Source: Paraburkholderia sp. Tr-20389 (lineage in GTDB: Bacteria > Pseudomonadota > Gammaproteobacteria > Burkholderiales > Burkholderiaceae). Taken from it: a DNA stretch of 64,000 nt. The notes under the pieces were generated by a model. That model was not told where the DNA came from. It made no database searches and saw nothing but the letters and a program-made list of their open reading frames with translations. Of this stretch, positions 55,488-59,267 are shown in pieces; within the stretch, counting starts at the first letter, position 1, and each line of letters starts with the position of its first letter. The DNA lies in assembly GCF_017104565.1 (NCBI RefSeq), contig NZ_JAAGPD010000038.1, positions 1 to 64,000 of the forward strand, in the 5' to 3' direction. The position numbers were made by a program, and so were the translations under genes.

Positions 55488-55823
55488 TCACCCGACGGCG
55501 AGCGTGACGGGTTTGCCGATGCGGCTCATCATTTCGACGAGCGTGTCGATGGTGAACTTGGCGGTTTTCTTGTTGACGACGTCCGACACGCGCGGCCGCG
55601 ACACCATGAGGATGTCGGCAGCTTCAGACTGCTTCAGACCATGCTGCTCGATCCATGTGGACAGTTCGGTCATCAATTGTTCCTTGAGAAGCCGGGTGTC
55701 GTTGATCTGCTTCTGAGACGCTGCATGCAGACGCTCTGCTTCCTCTGCCGGGAAGCCCAGCTCGAGAAACAGATTCGCGCCCGGTTTTGTCACATGACGG
55801 ACCTTGGTGTCGATGGTGTTCAT
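55488..55823 (-). CDS. higA: HigA-type antitoxin, XRE family
   Basis: 111 aa. The C-terminal half is a Cro/C1-type HTH (HGLKQSEAADILMVSRPRVSDVVNKKTAKFTIDTLVEMMSRIG in pieces, about residues 62-105); the N-terminal part (GFPAEEAERLHAASQKQ) is likely the toxin-binding segment. The start overlaps the toxin stop by four nt (ATGA). The toxin-first order is typical of higBA. It should repress the operon at the 16-bp palindrome upstream. Most similar to the XRE antitoxins paired with Gp49-like toxins. Confidence 0.88.
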   Translation of the reverse strand: MNTIDTKVRHVTKPGANLFLELGFPAEEAERLHAASQKQINDTRLLKEQLMTELSTWIEQHGLKQSEAADILMVSRPRVSDVVNKKTAKFTIDTLVEMMSRIGKPVTLAVG

Positions 55824-56158
55824 ACGTTCCTCACATTGGCCACGGCGCGGTAGCGCGCCTCGGCGATTTCCCTGTCACGCCGGCTGGTTGCCTGCGATTT
55901 CTTGTCGAAGCAGTGCAGCACATAAACGGCTTCAACGAATTTCGCGACGTACATCACGCGAAAAGCGCCTTCAGGCTCATTGACGCGAATTTCACGCGTA
56001 CCCGCGCCGACGATGTCGAACGCTTTCCAGTTGTCCGGATCGAGACCAGCCTGCACCTTGGCAAGCTGAAAGCCAGCACGACGGCGCGGTTCTTCCGGAA
56101 ACGCAAGCAGATCGTCGTAACTGGAGCCGACCCAGCGAATCTCTTTTTCAAGCTCCAT
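55820..56158 (-). CDS. higB: HigB-type toxin (RelE/Gp49-like)
   Basis: 112 aa; phage-derived Gp49-like (DUF891) RelE-fold toxin, predicted ribosome-dependent mRNA interferase. Visible family pieces: IRWVGSSYDDLLAFPEEPRRRAGFQL in part, GAGTREIRVNEPEGAFRVMYVAKFVEAVYVLHCFDKKSQAT in pieces, ending in the basic ITKxDIExAxxR-like RRDREIAEARYRAV. AAGGGGG lies at a good distance upstream of the ATG. Start and stop overlap with higA indicate coupling. The pair sits between the adenosyltransferase gene and aroG and is the only clearly accessory unit here. Confidence 0.9.
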   Translation of the reverse strand: MELEKEIRWVGSSYDDLLAFPEEPRRRAGFQLAKVQAGLDPDNWKAFDIVGAGTREIRVNEPEGAFRVMYVAKFVEAVYVLHCFDKKSQATSRRDREIAEARYRAVANVRNV

Positions 56159-56342: not shown

Positions 56343-57416
56343 TCAGTTCCCGCTGCCGCGCGCAACGCGCCGCTGCTTGACGGCATCCGCGAGACCTTCG
56401 AGCACGGCGACGCTGTCGTCCCAGCCGATGCACGCATCGGTGATGCTCTGGCCGTACGTCAGCGCGCAGCCGTCCTGGAGATCCTGGCGGCCCGCGACGA
56501 GGTGCGACTCGACCATCACGCCAACGATGCGTTCGTCACCGGCCGCGATCTGGCGGCCGATGTCGGCGCACACGGGAATCTGATTTTCGTGCTTCTTCGA
56601 GCTGTTCGCGTGGCTCGCGTCGATCATCAGGCGCGCGGCGAGGCCCGCCTTGCCGATGTCGCTGCACGCGGCGTTGACGCTGTCCGCGTCGTAGTTCGGG
56701 GTTTTGCCGCCGCGCAGGATGATGTGGCAATCCTCGTTGCCCGCCGTCGAGACGATGGCCGAATGGCCGCCCTTCGTCACCGACAGGAAATGGTGCGGCT
56801 GCGAGGCGGCCTTGATGGCGTCGACGGCGATCTTCACATTGCCGTCCGTGCCGTTCTTGAAGCCGACGGGGCACGACAGGCCCGACGCGAGTTCGCGATG
56901 CACCTGCGATTCAGTCGTGCGCGCGCCGATCGCACCCCACGAGATCAGATCGGCGATGTATTGCGGGCTGATCATGTCGAGGTACTCGGTGCCCGCGGGG
57001 AGCCCCAGCTCGTTGATCTTCATGAGCAGCTCGCGCGCAGTGCGCAGGCCGTCGTTGATCTTGAAGCTGTTGTCCATGTACGGGTCGTTGATGAGGCCTT
57101 TCCAGCCCACCGTCGTGCGCGGTTTCTCGAAGTACACGCGCATCACGATTTCCAGTTCGCCCGCGAAGCGCTTGCGCTGCTCGATCAGGCGACCCGCGTA
57201 TTCCAGCGCGGCCTTCGTGTCGTGAATCGAGCACGGTCCGACGATGACGATCAGCCGGTCGTCCATGCCGTGCAGAATCCGATGCATCGATTGACGCGCG
57301 TTGAAGATCAGGTCCGACACCTTCTCGTCGCAGGGGAATTCACGGATCAGGTGCGCGGGCGGCGTCAGTTCTTTCAGTTCGCGGATACGGACATCGTCGG
57401 TGTTGTGCGGGGGCAT
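56343..57416 (-). CDS. aroG: 3-deoxy-7-phosphoheptulonate (DAHP) synthase, class I
   Basis: First enzyme of the shikimate pathway: condenses PEP and erythrose-4-phosphate. 357 aa, type I-alpha as in E. coli AroG/F/H. Motifs: metal Cys in IVIVGPCSIHD (about residue 61), KPRTTVGWKGLINDP (about 97-111), GARTTESQVHRELASG, KNGTDG and DASHANSSKKHENQ with the metal His. RBS GAGGAGAAAACC lies directly before the ATG at 57416. It is preceded by a promoter, an aromatic leader peptide and a terminator forming an attenuator (57530-57725). Which aromatic amino acid inhibits the enzyme is not readable from sequence. tldD lies upstream with its own terminator. Confidence 0.97.
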   Translation of the reverse strand: MPPHNTDDVRIRELKELTPPAHLIREFPCDEKVSDLIFNARQSMHRILHGMDDRLIVIVGPCSIHDTKAALEYAGRLIEQRKRFAGELEIVMRVYFEKPRTTVGWKGLINDPYMDNSFKINDGLRTARELLMKINELGLPAGTEYLDMISPQYIADLISWGAIGARTTESQVHRELASGLSCPVGFKNGTDGNVKIAVDAIKAASQPHHFLSVTKGGHSAIVSTAGNEDCHIILRGGKTPNYDADSVNAACSDIGKAGLAARLMIDASHANSSKKHENQIPVCADIGRQIAAGDERIVGVMVESHLVAGRQDLQDGCALTYGQSITDACIGWDDSVAVLEGLADAVKQRRVARGSGN

Positions 57417-57529
57417 GGTTTTCTCCTCGATTCTTTGTGCGGTTCGGGCGGTTTGCTGCGATTCAACGACGGCGCCGCGGCGAACAGGTCAACAGGCTAA
57501 AAAGGTCAAAATCAAAGTTGTCAGGGGCG

Positions 57530-57562
57530 AAAAAAAACCGCCAGACTCGCTGGCGGTTTTTT
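57530..57562 (-). terminator. Attenuator terminator upstream of aroG
   Basis: On the minus strand CCGCCAG (57550-57556) pairs with CTGGCGG (57538-57544), extended by A-T pairs from AAAAAA to the left and the U-tract to the right, loop CGAGT, then eight T residues (57530-57537). It lies 27 nt after the leader-peptide stop and 114 nt before the aroG ATG. Its 5' arm is also complementary to a segment inside the leader ORF, so it can be disrupted. Confidence 0.88.
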
Positions 57563-57654
57563 CGGGAATTTCAGGTGCCTATGTACGTTCACACCCCTCT
57601 CGATCCGCCAGCGGTCTGAGATGCCCAAAAGAAATAAAAATAAAACTTGGCGGA
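57548..57654 (-). promoter_or_regulatory. Mutually exclusive pairings of the aroG attenuator
   Basis: Segment 1 is TCCGCCA (57648-57654, leader codons 2-4). Segment 2 is CGCTGGCGG, continued by A (57604-57613, leader codons 16-18). Segment 3 is CCGCCAGCG (57548-57556), the left arm of the terminator. Segments 1:2 pair over 7 bp, 2:3 over 9 bp, 3:4 form the terminator. The aromatic codons lie between 1 and 2. A ribosome stalled there masks 1 and frees 2 to sequester 3 (readthrough); a ribosome that reaches the stop covers 2 and lets 3:4 terminate. Confidence 0.82.
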
Positions 57655-57657
57655 CAT
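57589..57657 (-). CDS. Aromatic leader peptide of aroG (attenuator)
   Basis: 22-codon ORF on the minus strand starting ATG (57655-57657) and stopping TGA (57589-57591). The peptide begins MSAKFYFYFFWASQ; residues 5-11 are Phe-Tyr-Phe-Tyr-Phe-Phe-Trp, encoded TTT TAT TTT TAT TTC TTT TGG. The ORF begins about 30 nt after the predicted transcription start. No strong Shine-Dalgarno is seen; a TTG nine codons... eight codons upstream in frame would add two more Phe residues but also lacks one. Seven contiguous aromatic codons before a terminator and DAHP synthase are the hallmark of a regulatory leader, like pheL, pheM or trpL. Confidence 0.85.
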   Translation of the reverse strand: MSAKFYFYFFWASQTAGGSRGV

Positions 57658-57695
57658 GGCGAAAAAGGGATGGCTCGTCAAAAAGGTTGATTGGC

Positions 57696-57725
57696 TTTAT
57701 AACCCGAGGTTTGCTCGGCTGGCAA
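57696..57725 (-). promoter_or_regulatory. Predicted sigma-70 promoter of the aroG leader
   Basis: TTGCCA (-35, 57720-57725) and TATAAA (-10, 57696-57701) on the minus strand, 18-bp spacer, each one base from consensus. The start site should fall near 57689, about 30 nt before the leader ATG and just after the tldD terminator. Confidence 0.7.
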
Positions 57726-57737
57726 GCTGGAGGCGCC

Positions 57738-57757
57738 AAAAATGCGGAAAATCCGCA
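57738..57757 (-). terminator. Terminator after tldD
   Basis: On the minus strand TGCGGA-TTT-TCCGCA (57743-57757) is followed by TTTTT (57738-57742). A second 11-bp inverted repeat, CGCACGAATCG/CGATTCGTGCG (57754-57764, 57778-57788), overlaps it by four bases, so the two hairpins exclude each other in part. Confidence 0.75.
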
Positions 57758-57800
57758 CGAATCGACGTTGTCATGCGCGATTCGTGCGTGTGGTGCGAAA

Positions 57801-59267
57801 TCACACCGTGCCGCCGACCGTCATTTTGTCGATGCGCAGCGTCGGCTGGCCGACACCGACGGGCACGCTCTGGCCTTCCTTGCCGCACACGCCGACACCC
57901 GTATCCAGCGACATGTCGTTGCCGATCATGCTCACGAACTTGAGCGATTCGGGGCCGCTGCCGATCAGCGTCGCGCCCTTGACGGGATACGTGATCTTGC
58001 CGTTTTCGATCATGTACGCCTCCGACGCCGAAAACACGAACTTGCCGTTCGTGATGTCGACCTGGCCGCCGCCGAAGTTCACCGCATACAGACCATTCTT
58101 CACCGATTCGATGATTTCCTGCGGATCCTTGTCGCCGTTGAGCATGTACGTGTTGGTCATGCGCGGCATCGGCAGCGCGGCGTACGATTCGCGGCGCGCG
58201 TTGCCCGTCACGGGCATCTTCATCAGGCGTGCGTTCAGCGTGTCCTGGATATAACCCTTCAGGATGCCGTCTTCGATCAGCGTCGTGCACTGCGTCGGGT
58301 TGCCTTCGTCGTCGATGTTCAGCGATCCGCGGCGGTTCGGCAGCGTGCCGTCGTCGACCACCGTCACGCCCTTGGCAGCGACCTGCTCGCCGATGCGCCC
58401 CGCGAATGCCGACGAGCCCTTGCGGTTGAAGTCGCCTTCGAGGCCGTGGCCGATCGCTTCGTGCAGCAGCACGCCGGGCCAGCCCGGTCCGAGCACGACG
58501 GTCATCGCGCCGGCGGGCGCCGGACGAGCGTCGAGATTGACGAGCGCCGCGTGCACCGCGTCATCGACGTATTTCGACAGGATGTCGTCAGTGAAATAGC
58601 CGTAGTCGAAGCGTCCGCCGCCGCCGCCGCTGCCGATTTCGCGGCGGCCGTTCTGCTCGGCGATCACCGTCACGGACACGCGCACGAGCGGCCGGATGTC
58701 CGCGGCCAGCGCACCGTCGCTGCGCGCGACCAGCACGACGTCGTATTCGCCCGCGAGGCCCGCCATCACCTGCGTGATGCGCGGATCGCGGCTGCGCGCC
58801 ATCTGCTCGATGCGTTCCAGCAGCTTGACCTTGGCGGTCGCGTCGAGCGAATGCAGCGGATCGGACGGCAGATACAGATCGCGCCCGGACACGCCCGTCA
58901 GCGTCGAAGCCGCCTTGATCTTCTGCTTGCCGCCGCCCGCCTTCGCGATGGCGCGCGTGGCGATGGCCGCCTGGCGGATCGCTTCGGGCGACAGGTCGTC
59001 CGAATACGCGAACGCCGTGCGGTCGCCCGACACGGCGCGCACGCCGACGCCCTGGTCGATGCTGAAGCTGCCCGACTTGACGATGCCTTCCTCGAGGCTC
59101 CACGCTTCGCTGCGCGTGGTCTGGAAGTAGAGGTCGGCGTAATCGACGCGATGCGTAAAGATTTCGGCGAGCGTGCGGGTCAGCACGGCTTCGTCGAGGC
59201 CATAGGGCGTGAGCAGCACGTCTTTGGCCGTCGCGAGATTACGGATGCTGGGTTCGATGATGTTCAT
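57801..59267 (-). CDS. tldD: Metalloprotease TldD
   Basis: 488-aa subunit of the TldD/TldE (PmbA) zinc protease, which in relatives processes microcins, CcdA and other unfolded peptides. The zinc motif HEAIGH is in [16 protein letters not shown] at about residue 266, and the downstream metal Cys in [17 protein letters not shown] near the C-terminus. [15 protein letters not shown] and GRFDYGYF are also family blocks. Normal length. The partner pmbA/tldE is not in this window. Downstream of the nitrilase-family gene and yhdP on the same strand, the standard beta-proteobacterial order. Confidence 0.96.

Follow-up and report, generated by a model that had tools for sequence, protein, structure and literature searches.

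A leader is located between tldD (57801-59267) and aroG (56343-57416) on the minus strand of the window, the 64-kb stretch of DNA analysed here. The downstream gene, aroG, likewise on the minus strand, encodes a DAHP synthase (NF006723 AroG match, 603.6 bits), carries its own AGGAG, and is the presumed target of control. In the direction of transcription, the leader begins with a -35 hexamer TTGCCA (57720-57725), followed after an 18-base spacer by a -10 hexamer TATAAA (57696-57701), which predicts a transcription start around 57688 and hence a short, C/U-rich 5' UTR without a Shine-Dalgarno (SD) sequence (57658-57688). The leader ORF of 22 codons, MSAKFYFYFFWASQTAGGSRGV (MSAK-FYFYFFW-ASQTAGGSRGV), occupies 57589-57657, with its ATG at 57657 and its TGA at 57591-57589. 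Codons 5-11 (57625-57645), referred to as the control codons, read Phe-Tyr-Phe-Tyr-Phe-Phe-Trp, and the aromatic codons are conserved across the aligned leaders.

The same strand contains the elements of two competing helices. Segment 2 (57594-57618), the 5' side of the antiterminator, consists of CAGAC, the core GCTGGCGG (57612-57605), and GAGAGGGG. Segment 3 (57549-57568) consists of TTCCC and CCGCCAGC (57556-57549); the latter is complementary to GCTGGCGG and doubles as the 5' arm of the terminator, so that it is common to both structures. The intrinsic terminator (3:4 pairing, 57530-57562) has a 13-bp stem, in which AAAAAACCGCCAG (57562-57550) pairs with CTGGCGGTTTTTT (57544-57532), a 5-nt loop, and a run of eight T (57537-57530) that lies 113 nt from the aroG start codon. 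A first-pass annotation of this DNA had named the promoter, the 22-codon ORF, the aromatic codons 5-11, and the 8-T terminator, and all of these are present with their coordinates and motifs.

A consensus scan of the locus reported no promoter and no minus-strand terminator, because the -10 hexamer has a final A in place of the T that the scan requires, and because the stem pairs into the T run. The evidence for these two putative elements is conservation rather than the consensus scan. Among the 120 leaders described below, TTG[CT] followed after 18-22 nt by TATAA was found within 130 nt 5' of the leader start in 88, compared with 76 of 680 control tiles (130-nt tiles of the same upstream regions, some real sites included); TATAA alone was found within that distance in 95 of the 120, at a median distance of 44 nt. 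The silence of the consensus scans is what speaks for a chance ORF ahead of an ordinary terminator, with nothing regulated; conservation, codon pattern, covariation, and position of the leader all contradict that explanation, to which we give practically no credence and which we regard as refuted.

Two neighbouring features were observed at this locus. After tldD, a perfect 11-bp inverted repeat, CGCACGAATCG...CGATTCGTGCG (57754-57788), is followed by GATTTT; its arms vary among relatives while their complementarity is kept (judged by eye), and it is probably the tldD terminator. Directly 3' of aroG on the minus strand (55488-56158) are a Gp49-like gene (PF05973) and then a gene for an HTH_37 protein, a pair that looks like a HigB/HigA-type toxin-antitoxin module.

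Distribution of the leader and its link to aroG

We sampled 40 genomes of relatives, 120 of the family (112 with an AroG match), and 110 of the order (84 with an AroG match), and read 170 upstream regions, namely 30 from the relatives (24 of the family and six others), 80 from the family draw, and 60 from the order draw; by choice, we left out near-duplicates, second copies of AroG, and the most divergent AroG-like matches. An ORF with at least five aromatic codons in eight, within 400 nt of aroG, was present in 121 of the 170 regions, compared with 36 of 1700 shuffles. One of the 121, L168, was set aside as a long hydrophobic ORF with no terminator, leaving 120 leaders, of which 97 come from the 104 family regions and 23 from the 66 regions of other Burkholderiales families (12 families). 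Within the window's genus, the leader is present in all 24 genomes examined first (its own and 23 relatives). The alignment of homologous regions that the first-pass annotation had proposed as a check thus turned out in its favour, with the aromatic ORF in 97 of 104 family regions and covarying 2:3 and 3:4 stems.

The seven family regions without a counted leader are L073, L097, L098, L100, L106, L111, and L112; in L097, L106, and L111 the end of tldD (by eye) is roughly 100 nt or less from aroG. L073 (degenerate) and L153 (four aromatic codons of eight) fell below the cut-off and were not counted. L073, from a 1.2-Mb genome, has a decaying leader (MLAKFYFIF) with an imperfect terminator. A decaying leader was also seen in L190, from a record titled Candidatus Burkholderia humilis, where an intact aromatic leader ORF was not found.

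The covariance model R1, for which 90 family leaders were the only training set, matched 88 of the 120 family genomes, with one match per genome, and 25 of the 110 genomes of the order draw; as the latter include the window's own, this amounts to 24 of 109 further genomes, in 12 other families. All 88 family matches and all 24 order matches are on the same strand as aroG and 23-185 nt upstream of it. These genome searches scored some tens of first-look candidates per genome under strict filters, and may miss weak second copies. No leader was seen at the second DAHP synthase gene in the window's genome (G000:C44, 61% identical), as judged from its upstream region and the R1 search.

In a class-wide draw, R1 matched six of 185 genomes: the window's own, one Burkholderiales genome already seen, two of family f63, and two with no aroG adjoining the match (L177 and L178), which were taken as spurious for that reason. 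The two f63 leaders (L174 and L176), which belong to another order of the same class, carry SFYFWYYF and RFYRWYYF and have aroG downstream, with AroG proteins 71 and 67% identical to the window's; either horizontal transfer or an old shared trait would account for them.

Further, a pattern scan of named genomes yielded at least 118 stretches, of which one pass examined 80 and a later one all 118. The titles among the 80 listed include Burkholderia, Paraburkholderia, Caballeronia, Trinickia, Pandoraea, Pararobbsia, Ralstonia, and Cupriavidus, as well as some MAGs assigned to Burkholderiales and two to other phyla. Among the 118 pattern matches listed, 111 are 49-200 nt upstream of aroG, 110 with an aromatic ORF; in three cases the stretch stops 109-156 nt past the pattern with no aroG in it, and two of these three have an aromatic ORF; and four (L201, L221, L281, and L288, including both MAGs from other phyla) lack both aroG and an aromatic ORF.

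Conserved codons and helices

A short ORF rich in codons for the end products of its pathway is a defining feature of trp/phe-type attenuators, and the aroG leader has one. Seven of eight successive codons are aromatic in the window leader, a density reached by only one of 2000 dinucleotide shuffles of 57417-57800. On both strands of the whole window there are five ORFs of up to 45 codons with at least five aromatic codons in eight; three reach five, and the two that reach seven are taken as the TTG- and ATG-start versions of the aroG leader. The in-frame upstream TTG start (seen in L001, L003, L004, L006, and L007) was rejected, as the best ORF of L009 begins at the ATG; it is also disfavoured by the choice of ATG as the start in 119 of 120 leaders, made by an ORF script that prefers ATG.

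With no peptide filter applied to the 90 aligned family leaders, 527 of the 540 cells for codons 5-10 encode Phe, Tyr, or Trp. Nucleotides other than the majority letter occur 10 times at first, 48 times at second, and 134 times at third codon positions, and the second-position changes are mainly Phe/Tyr swaps. (An earlier count on 75 runs chosen by peptide pattern was set aside as biased by that pattern, and the 90-row count was used.) The nucleotides after the run, ATCTC...ACCGCTGGCGGATCGAGAGG, are nearly invariant in the family leaders, while the reading frame behind the run is not: 84 of the 90 leaders read one frame, five (the window's type) a second, and one (L013) a third. This conservation of the codon pattern, together with the variable frame behind it, indicates that the run is kept as codons and the following stretch as RNA. 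In L013 and L202 the frame changes within the run (FYFYFFGIS...) and its Trp is lost, and the ORF of L013 would continue into the terminator; these two may be naturally occurring mutants, for which misregulation is predicted, or may reflect sequencing errors.

The peptides of other families differ yet remain aromatic (e.g., FFTFYFWF, WFFFGFF, and RFFYYFYFF). This bears on whether the terminated leader RNA or the peptide has a further role in trans, as is reported for peTrpL of Sinorhizobium meliloti. A leader peptide acting in trans has been reported (PMC7298713), and Burkholderia cenocepacia makes 82 short 5' UTR transcripts, which are described in the available text as stemming from processing or attenuation (PMC5688073). 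Such a role is nonetheless improbable for the aroG leader, whose peptide is conserved outside the family only as aromatic, and in which the stretch behind the run is read in other frames.

Covariation was assessed in an alignment (A1) of 90 of the 97 family leaders (88 distinct), with the divergent L102, L104, L105, and L107-L110 left out. The 2:3 helix comprises 12 pairs, with 91.7% of cells paired and double changes in five pairs; none of 500 shuffles was as good, and slid versions reached 24-47%. The covariation with segment 3 involves the segment 2 core and GGGG, CAGAC being left out of the count, and the GGCGG:CCGCC core, invariant in A1, is uninformative in this respect. For the 3:4 helix, 99.5% of cells are paired, 12 cells show double changes, and the covariation score exceeds all 500 shuffles; the number of double-change pairs and the pair types show no clear excess (35 and 383 of 500 shuffles as high, respectively). 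The folds in the window are consistent with both helices, with -19.2 kcal/mol (z -5.2) for the terminator, -28.4 kcal/mol (z -3.5) for the segment 2-3 piece, and z -3.0 for the whole leader.

Segment 2 is matched to segment 3 beyond what the terminator needs: in the 110 leaders that have all three segments, base 8 of segment 3 lies outside the terminator stem in 102, and has a partner in segment 2 in 95 and in segment 4 in only eight. (These 110 come from the 121 leaders, 11 being set aside, and, being related, they do not count as independent cases.) A test in which segment 2 was shuffled against segment 3 gave a mixed result, with 14 of 32 leaders having at most 10 of 200 shuffles as good, and of four next-to-core positions tested for 2:3 pairing, none pairs in L030 and one in L027.

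The first-pass annotation had also proposed a 1:2 pairing; 2:3 and 3:4 hold up by covariation, and 1:2 does not, for 85% of its cells are paired in A1 with no covariation beyond shuffles, and the segment 1-2 piece in the window (-19.3 kcal/mol, z 0.04) has no special stability. The trpL attenuator employs such a hairpin. A 1:2 pause or protector hairpin, which is usual in trp and which we do not count as defining, is accordingly not supported for the aroG leader. Present, by comparison, are an intrinsic terminator that separates the ORF from the structural gene, as in trp/phe-type attenuators, and an antiterminator that excludes it, the latter visible in the covariation, with the covering of its 5' side by a finishing ribosome predicted by modelling (see below).

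The terminator was not called by our script in seven leaders, four of the family (L105, L107, L109, and L110) and three outside it (L139, L145, and L156). The four family cases, of genera g37 and g38, have a different leader (e.g., AFYFWYFTRTGG) and a terminator of other sequence; their 2:3 pairing is better than that of most shuffles for L109 and L110 (10 and 20 of 200 as good), but not for L105 and L107. Just 5' of the leader stop, 88 of the 97 family leaders carry GAGAGG (57596-57601, minus strand). In the antiterminator, the final bases of this motif pair with TTCCC; it is also SD-like, and as such might slow the terminating ribosome.

A proposed ribosome-controlled switch and the tRNAs it would read

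The leader ORF starts without an SD sequence. Anti-SD pairing of -6 kcal/mol or better was found in none of 120 leaders, compared with 33 of 360 random positions and 84 of 120 aroG starts (the latter approximate, being set at the first matched residue or a fixed offset), and GGAG precedes one of 120 leader starts and 97 of 120 aroG starts. A ribosome-binding site is a usual trait of attenuators that is therefore missing at this start, and we did not count it as defining because ilvL and thrL of E. coli also score low. Weak pairing is not unique to the aroG leader: ilvL, thrL, and hisL of E. coli have -0.9, -2.4, and -2.9 kcal/mol, respectively. The first two, in which one leader peptide carries codons of several end products, are in this respect like the aroG leader, and differ from it in serving the branched-chain and threonine pathways.

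We modelled the effect of ribosome position in 113 leaders, assuming a footprint of about 32 nt and folding only the RNA present before segment 4. The median probability of the 2:3 helix, P(2:3), was 1.00 for a ribosome stalled on the first aromatic codon or on a middle one, 0.51 on the final one, and 0.16 at the stop codon (1.00, 1.00, 0.39, and 0.00 in the window), with 31 of the 113 leaders remaining above 0.5 even at the stop codon. Among the E. coli controls, trpL and pheL gave the expected pattern (0.90-1.00 stalled, 0.18 at the stop codon), as did thrL at the stop codon (1.00, 1.00, 0.08, and 0.08); for hisL and leuL the model fails at the stop codon (0.96 and 0.81), and ilvL was excluded as no terminator was called there. 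For untranslated RNA, the median P(2:3) was 0.975, with 84 of 113 leaders above 0.5, compared with 0.18 for trpL, 0.19 for pheL, and 0.63 for leuL. The lack of an SD sequence, together with an untranslated RNA that favours 2:3, suggests a default-on device, in which a leader that is not translated would be read through.

Folding of the full-length leader at equilibrium with ribosome masks was rejected as a model for showing no switch, and was replaced by the folding of RNA before segment 4. At full length, the terminator had a probability above 0.5 in 112 of 113 leaders when free, 107 with an early stall, 113 with a stall at the last codon, and 110 at the stop codon. As the terminator wins at equilibrium, the switch must be kinetic, with 2:3 having to form first.

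Comparison of the leaders reveals the parts, the order in which they lie, the conservation of the aromatic codons, the two competing helices, and the link to aroG. On this basis we interpret the leader as a ribosome-mediated transcription attenuator of aroG, similar to those of trp and phe, and assign this interpretation a probability of about 0.9. Transcription from the promoter (57725-57696) would yield a leader RNA of about 160 nt, on which a ribosome would read Phe-Tyr-Phe-Tyr-Phe-Phe-Trp at codons 5-11 of the 22-codon ORF. When charged Phe- or Tyr-tRNA is scarce (in many species also Trp-tRNA), the ribosome would stall at the aromatic codons and leave segment 2, which overlaps the final codons of the ORF, free to pair with segment 3 once that is made; formation of 2:3 would then block the terminator, and aroG would be transcribed. 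When the aromatic tRNAs are charged, the ribosome would get to the stop codon and cover segment 2, so that 3:4 would pair and transcription would end at the T run. Within this scheme, we infer the transcription start, the stalling, the direction and size of the response, and the read-through of an untranslated leader. The first-pass annotation had attributed control of aroG to the charging of aromatic tRNAs by this mechanism, and sequence comparison strongly supports it.

It had further supposed that all three tRNAs are read at once. Phe codons are present in 120 of 120 leaders, Tyr codons in 118, Trp codons in 93, and all three in 92, so this supposition fits well for Phe and Tyr and has to be relaxed for Trp, of which 27 leaders have no codon. 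It could well be that the same attenuator is effectively a sensor of Phe and Tyr with the Trp codon incidental, though we put this a little short of an even chance. The absence of Trp from 27 of 120 leaders, against two for Tyr and none for Phe, points that way, as does the middling P(2:3) for a stall at the last aromatic codon (0.39 in the window, median 0.51), where the modelled ribosome overlaps segment 2. Conversely, 79 of the 97 family leaders retain a Trp codon, as do 14 of the 23 leaders from other families. Of these 79, 45 have Trp as their final aromatic residue and 34 have a further aromatic residue after it, so that Trp often lies within the run. Pooled sensing of Phe and Tyr looks like the rule, with Trp as a frequent addition.

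Relation to known systems and significance

An Rfam search gave the leader no match at gathering score. The family with the highest bit score, RF01859 (Phe_leader), was far below threshold (20.2 bits against a gathering score of 55, E 0.55) and had no match in the genome at E 0.001, and RF00513 (Trp_leader) was below gathering (41 bits), its family model being unmatched in the window's genome. We therefore file the aroG leader as a ribosome-mediated attenuator that falls outside both of the Rfam families tested. Control by a riboswitch that binds a metabolite, or by an attenuator that binds a protein, instead of by the ribosome would fit the strong conservation of segment 2 with its GAGAGG as RNA, and an ORF that has no SD sequence; we nevertheless consider it very improbable, given the lack of an Rfam match at gathering score and an aromatic run conserved codon-wise.

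Ribosome-mediated attenuation has close parallels in enterobacteria. In trpL-trpE of E. coli, as proposed for the aroG leader, the position of the ribosome chooses between 2:3 and 3:4, but its control codons are for Trp only. The pheL-pheA leader likewise combines successive Phe codons with a switch between antiterminator and terminator, and behaves similarly in the model with an early stall or at the stop codon; it differs in controlling pheA rather than a DAHP synthase gene, in reading Phe only, in its better anti-SD pairing (-6.1 kcal/mol), and in an untranslated RNA that favours termination (P(2:3) of 0.19 against a median of 0.975). Proteobacterial attenuators were reportedly surveyed by Vitreschak in 2004.

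The nearest published system is uORFC-13-1, which precedes aroF of Acholeplasma and was proposed as a uORF attenuator with at least one Phe codon and a terminator; in the text available, it comprises 24 sequences, from Acholeplasma and environmental samples only, and has a ribosome-binding site (PMC8632094). Compared by description only, both it and the aroG leader precede a DAHP synthase gene and include a terminator (PMC8632094). Attenuation of aroF-tyrA in E. coli is an old hypothesis (Camakaris 1980, as cited in PMC8632094 and PMC2659441), worded in the latter as an attenuator sensing tyr-tRNA, and regulatory RNAs upstream of aroF and aroH were predicted in Shewanella (PMC2659441). This hypothesis also concerns a DAHP synthase gene, in a bacterium where the described repressors of aroF and aroH are TyrR and TrpR (PMC5343134), regulators whose regulons the same survey, in its accessible part, places in gammaproteobacterial lineages (PMC5343134). 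In the window's genome, searches for the Trp repressor (PF01371) and the TyrR-type helix-turn-helix (TIGR04381) gave no match, E. coli being positive in both, and the contrast with TyrR/TrpR repression drawn in the first-pass annotation gains support from this. Its remark that the leader was undescribed in Burkholderiaceae stands insofar as our literature search found no aroG leader reported for Burkholderiales in the texts available, with the proviso that aroG could be among the 82 UTRs of Table S3 in PMC5688073, and is narrowed by the DAHP synthase leaders proposed elsewhere (PMC8632094).

As a broader proposal, which we advance tentatively and consider somewhat less probable than its contrary, the aroG leader may be an order-wide, default-on device without an SD sequence, present upstream of aroG in 13 of the sampled Burkholderiales families and one family of another order of the same class. 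It would read two to three tRNAs on one leader, and would govern entry to the shikimate pathway, a task that falls to TyrR/TrpR repression in E. coli. Unlike in the trp and phe leaders, the untranslated leader would antiterminate, and only ribosomes that finish the peptide would shut aroG off.

The leader offers a testable answer to the question of how Burkholderia, Paraburkholderia, Caballeronia, Ralstonia, Cupriavidus, Pandoraea, and their relatives may control the first step of aromatic biosynthesis. The leaders form a large, naturally varied set, with or without Trp, in different frames, and with SD-less starts, which is suited to the study of how one peptide integrates several tRNA signals, and the aroG leader is a handle for engineering aromatic production in Burkholderia-type bacteria.
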